A DNA stretch of 64,000 nt from Planctomycetota bacterium. GTDB taxonomy: Bacteria; Planctomycetota; MHYJ01; JACPRB01. The notes below the pieces were generated by a model. That model was not told the DNA's origin. It was given only the letters and a program-made list of their open reading frames with translations, and ran no database searches. Shown here one piece after another: positions 2,922 through 10,049 of this stretch (position 1 is the first letter of the stretch; each line of letters starts with the position of its first letter). Location of the stretch: NCBI GenBank assembly GCA_016190175.1, contig JACPRC010000147.1, positions 1 to 64,000 on the forward strand, in the 5' to 3' direction. The translations under genes were made by a program, and so were the position numbers.

Positions 2922-3359
2922 ATGGCGGACGACGCTTCGACGCTCGATCGACGCTCGTTTCTCGCCACGGTCCTGCGCGCCGCCGGCGTGCTGGCGCCCG
3001 CTTCGCTCCTCCTGTCCGGCCGGCTTCCATGGCTCGATGGCGACGAGACCCGGCTGGATGCCGCGCGGGTGCCCGTCTGGCATCCTGAATGCACAGGGAC
3101 GAACGATCTTCGGTGCGTGACCGTCTCCCGCGACCGGGCCGGCGGCTCGCGCTCCGAGATCCGACTCGAGGGCGCGGCGGCCCGCCTCTGGTGCCTCTGC
3201 GGCGGACGCTACTCGGAGACCGAGCTGGCGGCGCGGGTCGCCGAGGGCGAGCCGTGGGTCGCCCCCTTCCTTTTCGCCCTGTACGCACTCGGGTATCTCG
3301 TGCGCCTGAACGCGGAGGATCGCGTCGGCCTCTGGAGTCGAGAGGTCGAAATCGCATGA
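2922..3359 (+). CDS. PqqD/RRE-like protein with N-terminal Tat-like leader
   Basis: RRSFLATVLRAAGVLAPASLLLSG twin-arginine-like leader, then ARLWCLCGGRYSETELAARVAEGEPWVAPFLFALYALGYLVRL resembling PqqD-type RiPP recognition elements; ATGA overlap with next gene. Confidence 0.65.
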   Translation: MADDASTLDRRSFLATVLRAAGVLAPASLLLSGRLPWLDGDETRLDAARVPVWHPECTGTNDLRCVTVSRDRAGGSRSEIRLEGAAARLWCLCGGRYSETELAARVAEGEPWVAPFLFALYALGYLVRLNAEDRVGLWSREVEIA

Positions 3360-4744
3360 CCGACCGGTACGTCCTGACGACCGAGTTCTTCGCGGTCCCG
3401 TACTGCGAGGACACGTTCCTCCTCTACTCGCCGCTCAAGCAGATCCTGATCCTCGCGAACACGGAGATGGTGGACATGGTCGCGGCGCTCCGCGACGGCA
3501 CGTTCGCCGGCGTGGACGGCGCCAACATGGACGCGATGCAGCTCCTCCTCGAGTCCGGCGCGATCAACGGCACCCCGGATGAACCGCCGCGGCGTCCGCC
3601 GGCGGCCGAGTGGAAGCCCACCGAGGTCACGCTCTTCCTCACCAACGCGTGCAACCTCCGCTGCTCCTACTGCTACGCCTCGGGAGGGGATTCCTCCGGC
3701 ACGATGGAGGTCGCAACCGCCCTGGCGGCGGTGGACCTCGTCGTCCGCAACGCATCCGAACTGCATGCACCGGAGGTCCGCGTCTCCTACCACGGCGGCG
3801 GCGAGCCCACGCTGACATGGGAAGCGCTGACCGCGAGCGCGCTCCGCGCCGAGGAGTCCGCCGCGCGCCACGGACTGCGCGCTTCGATCAACCTGGCTAC
3901 CAACGGCGTCATGCCCGCGCGGAAGGTGGACTGGCTCGTGCGCCACGTCCACGAGTTCTCCGTCTCGTGGGACGGACCCGCGTGGGTGCAGGACCTCCAC
4001 CGCCCGACGGCCGCGGGCCGCGGCTCGGCCGAGACGGTCGAGGCCACGATGCGCCATCTCGACAGCCACGGCGCGCGCTGGGGCGTTCGTCTCACCGTCA
4101 CCGAGACCGGCGTGGACCGACTCGAGGAGATCGTCGAGTACCTCCTGCGCCGGTTCTCGCCCTCGACGGTCCACATCGAGCCGCTCTTCGCGCACGGTCG
4201 CGCGCGGGAGCGGGGCCTGCGCGCCCCGCATGCGCGCGCGTTCGTGGAGAACTTCCGGAAGGCGCAGCGCGTCGCCGATCGGCGCGGGATCGACCTCTAC
4301 TATTCCGGCGCCCGGTCCGAGCTGGTCACCGACACGTTCTGCGCCGTGCCGGAGGGGACCTTCAACGTCACGCCGGAGGGACTCCTGACGTCGTGCTTCG
4401 AAGCCTGCCGTCCGGGCGACCCGTTCGTCTACGGCGCGTTCGAAGGCGGCGAATTCAGGATCTCGCGCCCGAAACTCGACGCGCTGGCCGCACACACGGT
4501 GGAGGCGCGACCCGAATGCGCCCGCTGCTTCTGCAAGCGGCACTGCGCCGGCGACTGCGCCGCGAAGAACCTGACGTCGGACCTTCATCCGGACGAGAGA
4601 CTCAAGGCCGCGCGCTGCGCGATCAACCAGGAGCTGACCCGCGACCAGCTCGTGCGGCGGCTGCGGGAGAAGAGCCGGATGATGGCGCAGGTAGAGGCCA
4701 TGCTCGGTGCGCCCCCGGCCCTCGAGGAGATGCGTCATGCCTGA
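3356..4744 (+). CDS. radical SAM/SPASM domain protein (peptide-modifying type)
   Basis: CNLRCSYC cluster motif, GGGEPTL, C-terminal Cys-rich SPASM region (CARCFCKRHCAGDCAAKN). Confidence 0.9.
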   Translation: MTDRYVLTTEFFAVPYCEDTFLLYSPLKQILILANTEMVDMVAALRDGTFAGVDGANMDAMQLLLESGAINGTPDEPPRRPPAAEWKPTEVTLFLTNACNLRCSYCYASGGDSSGTMEVATALAAVDLVVRNASELHAPEVRVSYHGGGEPTLTWEALTASALRAEESAARHGLRASINLATNGVMPARKVDWLVRHVHEFSVSWDGPAWVQDLHRPTAAGRGSAETVEATMRHLDSHGARWGVRLTVTETGVDRLEEIVEYLLRRFSPSTVHIEPLFAHGRARERGLRAPHARAFVENFRKAQRVADRRGIDLYYSGARSELVTDTFCAVPEGTFNVTPEGLLTSCFEACRPGDPFVYGAFEGGEFRISRPKLDALAAHTVEARPECARCFCKRHCAGDCAAKNLTSDLHPDERLKAARCAINQELTRDQLVRRLREKSRMMAQVEAMLGAPPALEEMRHA

Positions 4745-5114
4745 TCCCAACGACTTCGCGCCGCGCCAGTCCGGGAAGGAGAAGCGCAAGGGCCCGAAGG
4801 CCCACGCGTTCGTGAAGCCGGACCTCGAGGTCCACATCGACGAGCGGCAGCTCCAGCGCAAGGACGACGACCTCGTGCTCGTCTGCCGGTGCGACACCGT
4901 CTGCACCTGCAACACGGTCGTCACCGGCCGCACGCGCTGCCGCTGCGACACGGTGTCGAAGTGCACCTGCGAGGCGGTCCAGACCTGCACCTGCAACACG
5001 GTGATGGTCTGCTCCTGCGATTCCGTGAAGAAGAGCTCGTGCAGTTGCGACAGCCATTCGCCGGGCGGGGGCGGCTCGCGCGTGTGCCGCTGCGTCCCGG
5101 TCCGGGCGCATTGA
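4737..5114 (+). CDS. CxC-repeat peptide, candidate RiPP precursor
   Basis: 125 aa; charged N-terminal half, then CRCDTVCTCNTV..CRCDTV..CTCEAV..CTCNTV..CSCDSV..CSCDS..CRC; sits between two radical SAM genes with 8-nt overlap and 7-nt gap. Confidence 0.75.
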   Translation: MPDPNDFAPRQSGKEKRKGPKAHAFVKPDLEVHIDERQLQRKDDDLVLVCRCDTVCTCNTVVTGRTRCRCDTVSKCTCEAVQTCTCNTVMVCSCDSVKKSSCSCDSHSPGGGGSRVCRCVPVRAH

Positions 5115-5121
5115 GCCGGAT

Positions 5122-6231
5122 ATGACCAAACCGGGAACGATGGCGAAGGACGGGACGCTCTACGACCCCGTCGCGGACTTCCGCTTCCGCCCCGGCCCGG
5201 ACGACCGCGCGTGGGACGGAGGCCGGCTGCGGTTCGACCGCTACCACGCGGCGCAGCGGTTCCGCCCGCATCAGGACGGTCGCGAGGTCAATCTGGAGAT
5301 CAACTACCTCTGCCGCTACGCGTGCCGCCACTGCTTCCAATCGCTCCGGCCCGATTCGTATCCCGAGGCGACGCCCGATGCGGCGGCCGTGATCGCCGCG
5401 GCGGAGCGCGTCGCGGCGGCCGAGGAGATCTCGATCACGGGCGGCGACATCTTCCTCCAGCCGGCGGTCTGGGAGGCGCTCGACTTCCTGCAGGAGCGCG
5501 CGCCCCGCGCGACGATCCGGCTCCTCGTGAACGGCGGCGGATTCGACGACGAAGTCCGCCGGCGCCTGGCGCGACTCGAAGGGCGGCGGATCATCGTCAA
5601 GTCGGACTTCTACGGGCACAATCCCCGCCTCCACGACGAGTTCACCGGCGTGCCGGGTTCGTTCGACCGTCTTGTCCGCATCGCGCGGTTCCTCCGCGAG
5701 ACCGGGATCGCGTTCGTCGCCGCGGCGGCGCTGACCCGCGCGGACTTCGAGACGCGCTTCGAGCTGGTCGGATTCCTCGGCGATCTCACCGAGGATCGAT
5801 TCACCGTCGCGTCCGCGATCCACCCGGGTCGCTCCGCCGACGAGGCGCGTCTCCTGCCGGAGCAGTTCGCGGAGCTCATGGAGGAGCGGTTCTTCGCGCC
5901 GCTGGCCGCGGAGTATCACTCGTTCGAGCCGCAGTGCGCCGGCGACTGCCAGTTCGCGGTCGTGTCTGCGAACGGAAAGGCGTGGGGTTGCTCGTTCCTG
6001 AAGCTCGACTCGGAGCCGATCGCCGCCTGGCGCGAGCGGGCCGTCGCGGCCGCGTCCACGGCGGACTGCGCGACCTGCTCGGCCCGCGCCACGTGTCGCC
6101 GATGCCCCTCCTTCCTCGCGGCCCGGGATTCCTATTGCCGCTTCGTGCGGCTCGCGCATCCGGGTCTCCTCGAGCGCGTCCGCCGCGCGCAAGAGGAAGG
6201 CTTCGCGTTCGTCCATCCCGGGAGATCGTGA
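5122..6231 (+). CDS. radical SAM protein with C-terminal SPASM-like Cys region
   Basis: CRYACRHC (CxxxCxxC), EISITGGDIFLQP, C-terminal CAGDCQFAVV...CATCSARATCRRC. Confidence 0.88.
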   Translation: MTKPGTMAKDGTLYDPVADFRFRPGPDDRAWDGGRLRFDRYHAAQRFRPHQDGREVNLEINYLCRYACRHCFQSLRPDSYPEATPDAAAVIAAAERVAAAEEISITGGDIFLQPAVWEALDFLQERAPRATIRLLVNGGGFDDEVRRRLARLEGRRIIVKSDFYGHNPRLHDEFTGVPGSFDRLVRIARFLRETGIAFVAAAALTRADFETRFELVGFLGDLTEDRFTVASAIHPGRSADEARLLPEQFAELMEERFFAPLAAEYHSFEPQCAGDCQFAVVSANGKAWGCSFLKLDSEPIAAWRERAVAAASTADCATCSARATCRRCPSFLAARDSYCRFVRLAHPGLLERVRRAQEEGFAFVHPGRS

Positions 6232-6234
6232 ACC

Positions 6235-6480
6235 ATGGCGACACAGGGATCGAACAAGGACGCCGCGCTGGGATGCGGATGTCTGATCCTCATCCTCGTC
6301 GCCGTCGTGGTCCTCGTCCTCAAGGGATGCTCGGGCTGCGGCTGCAGCCGGAAGTCCGAACCCCAATCCAAGTACGAGAACACGCGCAAGGTCGAGCAGG
6401 TCCGGGAGGAAGAGCCCGAGAAGATCCAGAAGAATGAAAGCCGGTACGATCGGGTCCCGCGATCGAAGGTCAAGAAATGA
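6235..6480 (+). CDS. small single-TM Cys-rich peptide
   Basis: 81 aa; GCGCLILILVAVVVLVLKGCSGCGCS then charged tail; 3-nt gap after the upstream gene, ATGA overlap with the downstream gene. Confidence 0.65.
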   Translation: MATQGSNKDAALGCGCLILILVAVVVLVLKGCSGCGCSRKSEPQSKYENTRKVEQVREEEPEKIQKNESRYDRVPRSKVKK

Positions 6481-7922
6481 GATGCGCGCTGGTCCGTCCC
6501 GCCCACCGCTCCTCGGGCTACGACGAGGGGACGCAGGAATGCCTCGGGATCGGCTACGTCGGCGCCGTCCTGCGGGAGCGCGGACACGAGGTCGTCGTCG
6601 TGGACGCCGAGATGGAGAAGCTGGCGGACCGCGAGGCTTTCGAGCGCGTGGCCGCGTCCGATCCCGGCCTGATCGGTTTCTCCGTGATGAGCGAGGACGC
6701 GCTGGACAGCCTGCGACGGCTCGCGCGCGACCTGCGGGAGGCGTTTCCGCGGGCGCATCTCACCGCGGGAGGCAACCTGCCCAGCTTCGACCCCGAGTGG
6801 ATCCTGCGGCTCTGCCCCGGCATCGACAGCGTGATCCGATTCGAGGGCGAGCGACCGCTGCTGGAACTCGCCGAACGACTCCGGAGCGGGAGGGACTTCC
6901 GGGCCGTTCCGCCGGCGGCATCCGTGGACGACCTGGACGCGCTGCCGTTCCCGATCCGCGACACGCTGCCCATCGCGCTGAAGAACGGGTGGATGGCGCC
7001 CATCTCGTCGAGCCGCGGGTGCCACGCGAGGTGCTCCTTCTGCGCCGTGCATCGCTTCAACCTCGATCCCGCACGACCCTGGCGGTTCCGCAGTCCCGCC
7101 GGGGTCGCGGACGAGATCGACGGGCTCGTCGCGGACTTCGGCGTCCGCGAGGTCAACTTCGTGGACGACGATTTCATCGGCAACCGGAAGCAGGGGCAGC
7201 CGCGCGCGCGCGAGCTGGCCGCCGAGTTGATCCGCCGCGGATTGAAAGTCGGTTTCTCGCTGCAGTGCCGCGCCGAGTGGATCGATCGCGCCACCTTCCG
7301 CCCGCTCAAGGCCGCCGGGCTCCGGATGGTCTTCTTCGGCGTCGAGGCCGTGGACGAGGAGAGCCGCCGGAGATACGGGAAGCCGCAGTCGCGCGAGCTC
7401 GTGCGGCGCACGCTGGAGCTGCTCGACGAGCTGGACGTGTACGCCCACGTCGGCTTCATCATGTTCAACCCCTGGACCCGCCTGGAGGACGTGCGCGAGG
7501 CCGTGGAGTTCCTGCGCGACATCGGCCATCTCAACATCCACACCGCGACGAATTTCCTCCAGTTGAGTCCGGGGACGCCGCTGCTGGAACCGCTCGCCGC
7601 CGGCGGCATGGCGTTCCGCGAGCCGCACGGAGGCTACCGCTGGTCGTTCGCCGATCCCCGCACCGCGTCGGTGAAGGCGGTCTTCGATCGCGTGCTCTGG
7701 CCGCAGTTCCCCGCCTGGTACGAGTCGCTGATGGCGAAGTGGAGCGTGCTGACGGCGCGGCGGTCGGACGAACGATGCGCGCATGACCTGCGCCGCATGG
7801 ACGACCTCGTCCACGATGTGGCGATCCGCACGCTCGACGCGATCGAGTCGGACCCCGGGGTCGATCTCTTCGCGCTGGTGCGCGAGCTTTCGGAAAGGAC
7901 GGCATGCGCAGCGCGCTCCTGA
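6477..7922 (+). CDS. B12-binding-domain-type radical SAM protein
   Basis: N-terminal Rossmann-like B12-binding-type region (MRCALVRPAHRSSGYDEGTQECLGIGYVGAVLRERGHEVVVVDAE), CHARCSFC motif. Confidence 0.88.
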   Translation: MRCALVRPAHRSSGYDEGTQECLGIGYVGAVLRERGHEVVVVDAEMEKLADREAFERVAASDPGLIGFSVMSEDALDSLRRLARDLREAFPRAHLTAGGNLPSFDPEWILRLCPGIDSVIRFEGERPLLELAERLRSGRDFRAVPPAASVDDLDALPFPIRDTLPIALKNGWMAPISSSRGCHARCSFCAVHRFNLDPARPWRFRSPAGVADEIDGLVADFGVREVNFVDDDFIGNRKQGQPRARELAAELIRRGLKVGFSLQCRAEWIDRATFRPLKAAGLRMVFFGVEAVDEESRRRYGKPQSRELVRRTLELLDELDVYAHVGFIMFNPWTRLEDVREAVEFLRDIGHLNIHTATNFLQLSPGTPLLEPLAAGGMAFREPHGGYRWSFADPRTASVKAVFDRVLWPQFPAWYESLMAKWSVLTARRSDERCAHDLRRMDDLVHDVAIRTLDAIESDPGVDLFALVRELSERTACAARS

Positions 7923-9022
7923 TCGCCTGTCTTCTCGCGCAGGACCCGGCGGAGGATTTCGCGCGGGCCGTCTCCGAGATGAAGGCGAAGCGATGGGAGG
8001 AGGGGCGCGCCATCCTGGACCGGCTCGTCCGCGCGCGGCCGGACGACCACGAGGCGCGCAACAACCTCGCGGTCTGTCTCATCAAGCTCCGCCGCTACGG
8101 CGAGGCGGAGTTCCACCTTCTGCGGGTTCTCCGGGCGGCGCCCGACAAGGCGGGGAGTCACTTGAACTTGGGCGTGGCTCGCCAGGGGAATTCGCAGACG
8201 GATCTGGCGTTGAAGGACACGGATCGGGCCGTCGACATGGGCAAGGCGCAGCGGCCGCCGACGCCGGACCAGACCGCGGCCGCGCTCTTCAATCGAGGGT
8301 GGCTCCTCGACGAGCTTGAGCGGTACGAGGACGCGGTCGCGGCCTACAAGGAGGCCCTCGGGCTGCGTCCCGAATATCCCCGCGCGTGGCTCGGACTGGC
8401 CGTCGCGTACGCGAAGATGGGACGGTACAAGGACGCCCGCGAGGCGCTTCGGGAGGCGAAGAGCCGGGAGCGGCTCGATCCCGAGATCGCCCCGCTGATC
8501 GAGCGGAACGGAATCGTCATCGCGGAGATCGAGACGGAGATCGCCCCCGCTCCGTCCCGAATCGCGATTCCGTCGCCTGATCCGGCCCCCGCGGCCGCCC
8601 CGCGCCGCACGTTCTTCGCCGACGGGATGATCGGCGTGACGGGACTGTGGGATCGATCGAGGGGCTGGTCCGTCTTCGGATACGCGCTGCTCCACTGCGT
8701 GCTCCTGGGCGCGGCGCTGGCGCTGCTCGGGTCGCGGCAGCGCGGCGCCTCCGCGCTCTTCGGGGGCGCGGCCGTCCTGCTATTCCTGACGAGCTGGGGG
8801 TTCGCGGGTTGGGGCAAGTGGGGCGGGCTGCTCCTCGCGGCGGCGGTCAGCGTCGCGGCGGCGGAGCTGATGCGGGCGCGCGCGAGGGCGGCGCCGGTCC
8901 CCGCGGCGCCCACCCACATCGCCTGGGAGTGCGCGGACTGCGGAAGGAAGCTGCGCGCGGCGGCGGAGATGGCGGGCAAGTCGATCCGGTGCCCGCAGTG
9001 CGGTTGCGTGAAGAGGTTGTAG
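7904..9022 (+). CDS. TPR-repeat membrane protein with C-terminal zinc ribbon
   Basis: TPR-like repeats, hydrophobic helices, C-terminal CADCGRKLRAAAEMAGKSIRCPQCG; overlaps the upstream radical SAM gene. Confidence 0.8.
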   Translation: MRSALLIACLLAQDPAEDFARAVSEMKAKRWEEGRAILDRLVRARPDDHEARNNLAVCLIKLRRYGEAEFHLLRVLRAAPDKAGSHLNLGVARQGNSQTDLALKDTDRAVDMGKAQRPPTPDQTAAALFNRGWLLDELERYEDAVAAYKEALGLRPEYPRAWLGLAVAYAKMGRYKDAREALREAKSRERLDPEIAPLIERNGIVIAEIETEIAPAPSRIAIPSPDPAPAAAPRRTFFADGMIGVTGLWDRSRGWSVFGYALLHCVLLGAALALLGSRQRGASALFGGAAVLLFLTSWGFAGWGKWGGLLLAAAVSVAAAELMRARARAAPVPAAPTHIAWECADCGRKLRAAAEMAGKSIRCPQCGCVKRL

Positions 9023-9974: not shown

Positions 9975-10049
9975 TCGGGGCGGCGGGATTTGAACCCACG
10001 ACCTCTTGGTCCCGAACCAAGCGCTCTAGCCAGACTGAGCCACGCCCCG
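9975..10049 (-). tRNA. tRNA-Pro(CGG)
   Basis: Minus strand CGGGGCG...CTTGG-TTCGGGA-CCAAG...GTGGG-TTCAAAT-CCCGC-CGCCCCG-A: complete cloverleaf, anticodon CGG, 7-bp acceptor beginning with C as in tRNA-Pro. Confidence 0.95.

Follow-up and report, generated by a model that had tools for sequence, protein, structure and literature searches.

In a 64,000-nucleotide stretch of a Planctomycetota contig (the window), we found a cluster of seven genes that contains a pair constant among its relatives: a radical SAM (rSAM)/SPASM enzyme of the P0002 type and a protein ending in CxC[D/N]x[V/I] repeats, here P0003. The pairing spans five bacterial phyla (Planctomycetota, Acidobacteriota, Chloroflexota, Pseudomonadota and Bacteroidota) and phages, and is recovered from either partner. 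Sequence comparison indicates that the stand-alone peptide of the window is an unusual form, and that in most homologues the repeat is the C-terminal tail of a protein with a twin-arginine signal, usually a WD40 protein. Our overall reading, to which we assign a probability of about 0.55, is that P0003 would be the substrate of P0002, with its leader bound and its tail thioether-linked by the enzyme, and that the accessory genes would have the roles proposed below.

Gene content of the locus

The seven genes occupy positions 2922–9022, all on the + strand. They are tightly packed, overlapping or nearly abutting, and their reading frame coordinates bear out the preliminary description of the locus. 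P0001 (2922..3359) and P0002 (3356..4744) overlap by 4 bp, and P0002 and P0003 (4737..5114) by 8 bp; 7 bp separate P0003 from P0004 (5122..6231). P0005 (6235..6480) overlaps P0006 (6477..7922) by 4 bp, and P0006 overlaps P0007 (7904..9022) by 19 bp. The order of genes 2–7 is identical in a second planctomycete (locus L001), where gene 1 is without comparison because the contig ends before it. P0004, P0005, P0006 and P0007 accompany the peptide in this order only in these two planctomycetes.

A gene on the − strand just upstream (136–2733) encodes a Ser/Thr kinase with WD40 repeats. Considered as a member of the system, it is probably unrelated: it lies on the opposite strand and has no CxC tail, and WD40 genes are common in such genomes. 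Downstream of the operon, the − strand carries a tRNA-Pro (cgg) at 9975–10049.

P0003, the putative precursor, contains 16 cysteines in 125 aa, arranged in eight CxC units that span residue 50 to about 121 and agree with the units listed earlier. Shuffling the residues of P0003 yielded eight CxC in 1 of 20,000 shuffles, and seven CxC[DNE][TAS][V/H] units in none of 20,000, the most seen being two. The L001 orthologue shares 65% amino acid identity with P0003, with a dS of 0.96 against a dN of 0.30, which argues that P0003 is a real gene. No Pfam or NCBIfam family matched it at E values up to 1, and no searched library names the repeat, in keeping with the earlier remark that it was not recognised from any named RiPP class.

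Features of the core enzyme

The three radical SAM proteins reported before are recovered as Pfam Radical_SAM matches in P0002, P0004 and P0006. P0002 displays the general features of an rSAM/SPASM RiPP maturase: a CxxxCxxC motif, the full SPASM cysteine pattern and, according to a structural model, an RRE-like N-terminal domain at residues ~12–66. The alignment (A4) shows conservation of the motifs and of N-terminal residues. The model has a mean pLDDT of 79.9; its N-terminal domain was modelled as beta-beta-beta-alpha-alpha, as expected of an RRE, at a pLDDT of about 85–88. Among solved structures, the fold is closest to that of CteB (5wgg), with a match of 464 columns that covers nearly the full length. 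CteB, at 18% identity, is also the top PDB match by sequence (3e-38 with the P0002 profile), and ChlB, SuiB, SkfB and anSME are further fold matches. The nearest NCBIfam models, those of PapB, the nif11 maturase, QhpD and the SCIFF maturase, all score far below their cutoffs, and P0002 reaches no NCBIfam cutoff among the matches listed. In the rSAM tree, groups G and I are firm, while the P0002-like sequences do not resolve cleanly into a single clade (two changes; long branches); we therefore make no claim of a single clade for all CxC partners.

Gene 1 had been described as PqqD-like, an assignment that we could not confirm. P0001 (145 aa) has a twin-arginine-like N-terminus (DRRSFLATVLRAAG...) and no assigned domain. 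It matches nothing in Pfam or NCBIfam, has no homologue in ten other genomes searched, and its single-sequence model (pLDDT 59, low confidence) has no fold match; a profile comparison (hhalign) to RR family A6 gave an E value of 0.13. A PqqD/RRE identity of gene 1 is thus unproven. Recognition is most likely the task of P0002 itself, whose N-terminal domain would bind the leader.

Accessory genes

P0004 is a second rSAM protein, GeoRSP-like below the NCBIfam cutoff, with an orthologue only in L001. Reading of its sequence reveals CxxxCxxC and a near-SPASM pattern. P0005 is an 81-aa membrane peptide with a GCGC motif (L001 orthologue at 39% identity). Pfam agrees with the earlier B12-type and TPR assignments of P0006 and P0007. 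P0006 matches Radical_SAM and B12-binding, resembles BchE/HpnR below the NCBIfam cutoffs and has an L001 orthologue at 66%. P0007 matches TPR and has membrane segments and C-terminal zinc-ribbon-like CxxC pairs; its L001 orthologue (40%) gives no alignment in the zinc-ribbon part.

Minimal systems consist of a P0002 relative and a CxC protein alone. Extended loci add rSAM groups G, I and C, a U32-like protein H, and small proteins A and B. Small protein B looks PqqD-like on reading, and its profile aligned with TbiB1 (5v1u) over the full length at a non-significant E value of 1.1; as this was the only match, we do not assign A and B to PqqD. In genome G514 (L033), a stand-alone CxC peptide with a Tyr-rich end is accompanied by an ApyD-like B12-rSAM and a group C rSAM. 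A Bacteroidota CxC cluster (L002) includes a YcaO-domain gene at 3575–5260, absent from the other extended loci examined.

Co-occurrence of the enzyme and CxC proteins

Loci were selected from the enzyme side with a profile of P0002 alone (alignment A4). Strong relatives were found in 4 of 296 Planctomycetota, 10 of 347 Acidobacteriota and 1 of 396 Bacteroidota genomes. The weakest Acidobacteriota match, G509 (3.6e-68), lies outside the set of loci whose surroundings were retrieved. Where the flanks are intact, a CxC protein lies alongside in almost every case; it adjoins the enzyme in L059, L060, L061, L062, L063, L064, L066 and L067. Three loci are without a visible CxC tail because their contigs end or split first: the contig of L017 stops inside a twin-arginine WD40 protein bearing the leader motif, L040 is a 2.5-kb contig, and genome G396 has its enzyme on one contig (L065) and its CxC protein on another (L004).

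The pairing is also found on plasmids. Among the plasmid rSAM matches inspected, a set that excludes Salmonella H5, it occurs in Candidatus Chlorohelix allophototropha (L082; Chloroflexota, closed genome) and in the Pseudomonadota Caballeronia (L083) and Methylocystis (L084); an Edwardsiella match further from P0002 is without a CxC protein. In L084 a 128-aa CxC-rich frame (5173–5559) lies directly downstream of the rSAM gene and is absent from the PLSDB gene table shown. On viral contigs selected by the enzyme profile, CxC-ending frames lie just upstream of the enzyme in L069 (5294–5794), L072 (the same frame), L073 (5726–5932) and L075 (5621–5836). The viral L024, found by the CxC pattern, has its frame at 7234–7812 with rSAM genes on both sides. 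The weaker of the 13 viral rSAM matches, further from P0002, are without a CxC protein. PHROGs has no family for the four viral CxC proteins scanned. The frame in L069 adjoins a baseplate gene. Two other viral contigs, L070 and L071 (4546–5424 in each), encode a 292-aa CxxC-repeat protein upstream of an rSAM that itself has CxxC repeats, an arrangement distinct from the CxC system.

Selection from the CxC side yielded L001–L004, L033 and L024. Found in this way, L001–L004 and L033 provide the reciprocal test of the pairing; the Bacteroidota pairing was found from the CxC repeat. The pattern occurs in 1 of 393 Planctomycetota genomes, with 0 in the reversed control. We took the highest CxC count per 120 aa among all open frames up to 2.5 kb from the enzyme. 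It is 3–9 in 20 CxC loci and never exceeds 2 in 20 control rSAM loci, some of which have shorter flanks; in background tiles of the window it rises to as much as 3. Searches by tblastn of plasmids with P0003 and of phages with the L024 protein gave no match. The co-occurrence across phyla upholds the earlier view that the CxC peptide and the rSAM/SPASM enzyme belong together, and homologous loci lacking the peptide or the rSAM gene, which that view had named as contrary evidence, were not found among close relatives.

Architecture of the putative substrates

The usual precursor in Bacteroidota, Acidobacteriota, Chloroflexota and the planctomycete G060 begins with a leader and a twin-arginine motif, followed by the cargo domain and finally the tail; the L017 sequence breaks off ahead of its tail. 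The cargo is a WD40 domain in most precursors, and L026 has none. On the 241-kb Chlorohelix plasmid (L082, 10705–11973), two substrates have near-identical leaders and tails and different cargo domains; in the second (WP_341472206.1), leader and tail are attached to an exported domain unrelated to WD40.

The leader of the relatives carries the motif P[EQ][IV][YF]x[VF]. The pattern P[EQRAK][IVLA][YFHV]x[VFIL] is present within the first 90 residues of 19 of 21 precursors, against a mean of 0.23 and a maximum of 3 after shuffling, a test that somewhat overstates the motif because it was derived from the same sequences. Independent of this is the fixed spacing: the leader proline and the twin arginine are 16 residues apart in 16 of 17 cases. 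In P0003 the motif takes the form GPKAHAF at residues 19–25, with PKAHAF starting at residue 20. The twin-arginine position reads Glu-Arg in P0003 and Glu-Lys in the L001 peptide, which looks like decay of the export signal. The window peptide thus retains the leader motif, whereas both the twin-arginine signal and the propeller have been lost.

The consensus of 107 tail hexamers is C-[T/S]-C-[N/D]-x-[V/I], with N, D, E or Q at position 4 in 85 of them. In the window, L001 and several Acidobacteriota, the tail closes with a CxC[V/I]P unit, which has no acid or amide. In L063 (11356–13146) and L066 (10718–13798), the CxC tail is followed by a Peptidase_S74 chaperone domain with a Ser/Lys dyad five apart, the spacing of the self-cleaving S...K family (PMC3742443). 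Cleavage before the serine would leave the C-terminus CTCIPVP, in agreement with the natural ends of L061, L062 and L064. This suggests a trimeric product in which the CxC tail forms the mature C-terminus.

The further stand-alone CxC proteins scanned, like the second Chlorohelix substrate, are without a match in NCBIfam. The WD40-form CxC proteins match beta-propeller models there, always below cutoff, and none of the further enzymes scanned reaches the cutoff of an equivalog. The preliminary reading of the locus as a RiPP-type operon is sustained by the CxC/rSAM pairing; its small-peptide part is not, since most relatives are tails on twin-arginine, usually WD40, proteins, to which the term RiPP-like protein maturation is better suited.

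Comparison with known systems

The system works like a ranthipeptide or QhpD system, yet it fails the tested defining features of both, as well as those of the SCIFF and His-Xaa-Ser systems. With ranthipeptides (PapA/PapB, freyrasin) it shares an RRE and an rSAM/SPASM enzyme, repeated Cys/acid motifs and leader guidance, and the PapB family NF047865 is the nearest curated model to P0002 (7e-33; 114.3 bits, below the cutoff of 340). PapB links Cys at the CH2 next to the side-chain carbonyl of Asp/Glu (PMC9413430). The PapB-type repeat, however, is C-X3-D/E, whereas units of the P0003 type, CxC[D/N]x[V/I], have a C-x2-[D/N] spacing, and the substrate is usually the tail of a large exported protein.

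QhpD is an rSAM forming Cys-to-Asp/Glu thioethers in a periplasm-bound protein with an N-terminal leader (PMC7876137), and the QhpC/QhpD pair thus resembles the present one in its leader-bearing exported substrate and rSAM partner. QhpC differs in having three dispersed links and its own leader route instead of tandem CxC repeats and a twin-arginine signal; P0002 scores 94.4 bits against QhpD TIGR03906 (6e-27; cutoff 453). No amine dehydrogenase genes are listed around the loci inspected, where most genes are without a family scan. The likeness to SCIFF (CteA/CteB) lies in CteB, a thioether synthase and the best PDB match to P0002. The score against the SCIFF maturase TIGR03974 (89.6 bits) falls short of the cutoff of 425, and P0003, unlike SCIFF, lacks the six-Cys-in-forty-five layout and has no NCBIfam match. 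As in the His-Xaa-Ser system (HxsB/HxsC), two different rSAM enzymes flank a repeat protein; the tripeptide repeat of that system is absent here, the repeat being CxC[D/N]x[V/I] and not HxS, and P0002 and P0004 stay far under the cutoffs of HxsB (74.5 bits, cutoff 370) and HxsC (48.1 bits, cutoff 267.9).

Searches of the open PMC subset yielded no description of a RiPP system of rSAM, WD40 and CxC proteins, and one may exist elsewhere; the sole rSAM/WD40/SPASM paper found concerns another system, with FxSxx peptides. The enzyme fold and the logic are known, the substrate family is apparently unnamed, and the portable exported tail is what is unusual.

Discussion

We propose that P0003 is made by the ribosome and serves as the substrate of P0002. 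The enzyme would bind the leader with its RRE-like N-terminal domain (PKAHAF in P0003, P[EQ][IV][YF]x[VF] in relatives), and the rSAM core would modify the C-terminal CxC[D/N]x[V/I] array. By analogy, the likeliest reaction is the joining of Cys to the neighbouring Asp/Asn, through a ranthipeptide- or QhpD-like thioether between the Cys sulfur and the carbonyl-adjacent CH2 of Asp, Asn, Glu or Gln. We infer this bond because CteB, PapB and QhpD, the nearest relatives, make Cys thioethers, because the residue after CxC mostly has a CH2 adjoining a carbonyl, the carbon used by PapB, and because PapB tolerates Cys–Asp spacings of 0–6 (PMC9413430). Several observations count against it: the C-x2-[D/N] spacing departs from that of PapB substrates, the last unit is devoid of an acid or amide, P0002 stays below the NCBIfam cutoffs listed, and CxC arrays would suit metal binding too. 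The product would be a serially cross-linked tail; with two Cys per acceptor, about half of the thiols would stay free, perhaps for metal. In most relatives, the tail is attached to a twin-arginine-signal cargo, as a rule a WD40 propeller, and the protein would leave the cytoplasm folded and cross-linked, a state that twin-arginine export would suit. In the window, P0004 and P0006 probably add further modifications, perhaps C-methylation by P0006, a guess from its enzyme class; from their segments, our guess is that P0005 and P0007 handle or anchor the product. Any role of P0001 is likewise conjectural.

Of the alternatives, we consider it unlikely that the rSAM enzymes modify the repeats by another chemistry, such as epimerisation, an alpha-carbon sactionine, a C–C cross-link, oxidation, or methylation via P0006. 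The rSAM/SPASM fold supports several reactions, and the fold matches of P0002 include ChlB, SuiB, SkfB and anSME. A B12-rSAM is present in the window and in L033, where it is closest to ApyD, an enzyme that makes beta-methyltyrosine (PMC10635010). The matches of P0002, however, are dominated by CteB, PapB, QhpD and SCIFF-type enzymes, and the minimal two-gene loci have no recognised B12-rSAM; both points speak against another chemistry.

It is about as unlikely that the CxC array is a metal-binding tail, metallothionein-like or cluster-binding, and that the rSAM does something other than cross-linking, such as adjusting a few residues or modifying a different partner. Thiolate metal sites typically have serial CxC, folded and cofactor-loaded proteins are usually exported by the twin-arginine route, and the 16 cysteines of P0003 fit such a tail. 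Yet metal binding has no need for the acid or amide at position 4, a partner rSAM/SPASM of the thioether-forming kind would be superfluous for a simple metal site, and P0003 matches no known Cys-rich metal-binding family, such as a metallothionein-like one, in Pfam or NCBIfam. A chance neighbourhood of unrelated genes is refuted to a high degree: CxC-rich frames do arise by chance in GC-rich DNA, as the background tiles illustrate, but neither the pairing in five phyla and phages, from either partner, nor the rarity of the pattern in Planctomycetota against its reversed control leaves this any appreciable probability.

Taken more broadly, and at somewhat less than even odds, the system may represent a previously unnamed class of protein modification, present in phages and in no fewer than five bacterial phyla. 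In it, a dedicated rSAM/SPASM enzyme would serially cross-link portable C-terminal CxC tails within the cell, and the folded proteins would then be exported. The cargo, as part of the same tentative proposal, would range from WD40 propellers and other exported domains to chaperone-released trimers and phage proteins, and the window would hold a reduced form, the free peptide.

The pairing connects many WD40 and hypothetical proteins with twin-arginine signals to one group of radical enzymes, and each enzyme gains a substrate that can be tested and whose leader is clear and repeat simple. Candidatus Chlorohelix allophototropha has a closed genome and is kept in a stable enrichment culture (PMC10972752); since this genome carries the two-substrate locus, the modification can be sought directly. 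The phage-borne copies raise the question of what role such a tail may have on the virion or in the infected cell. Few rSAM-modified proteins are exported and not released as small peptides, and the system would enlarge their number.
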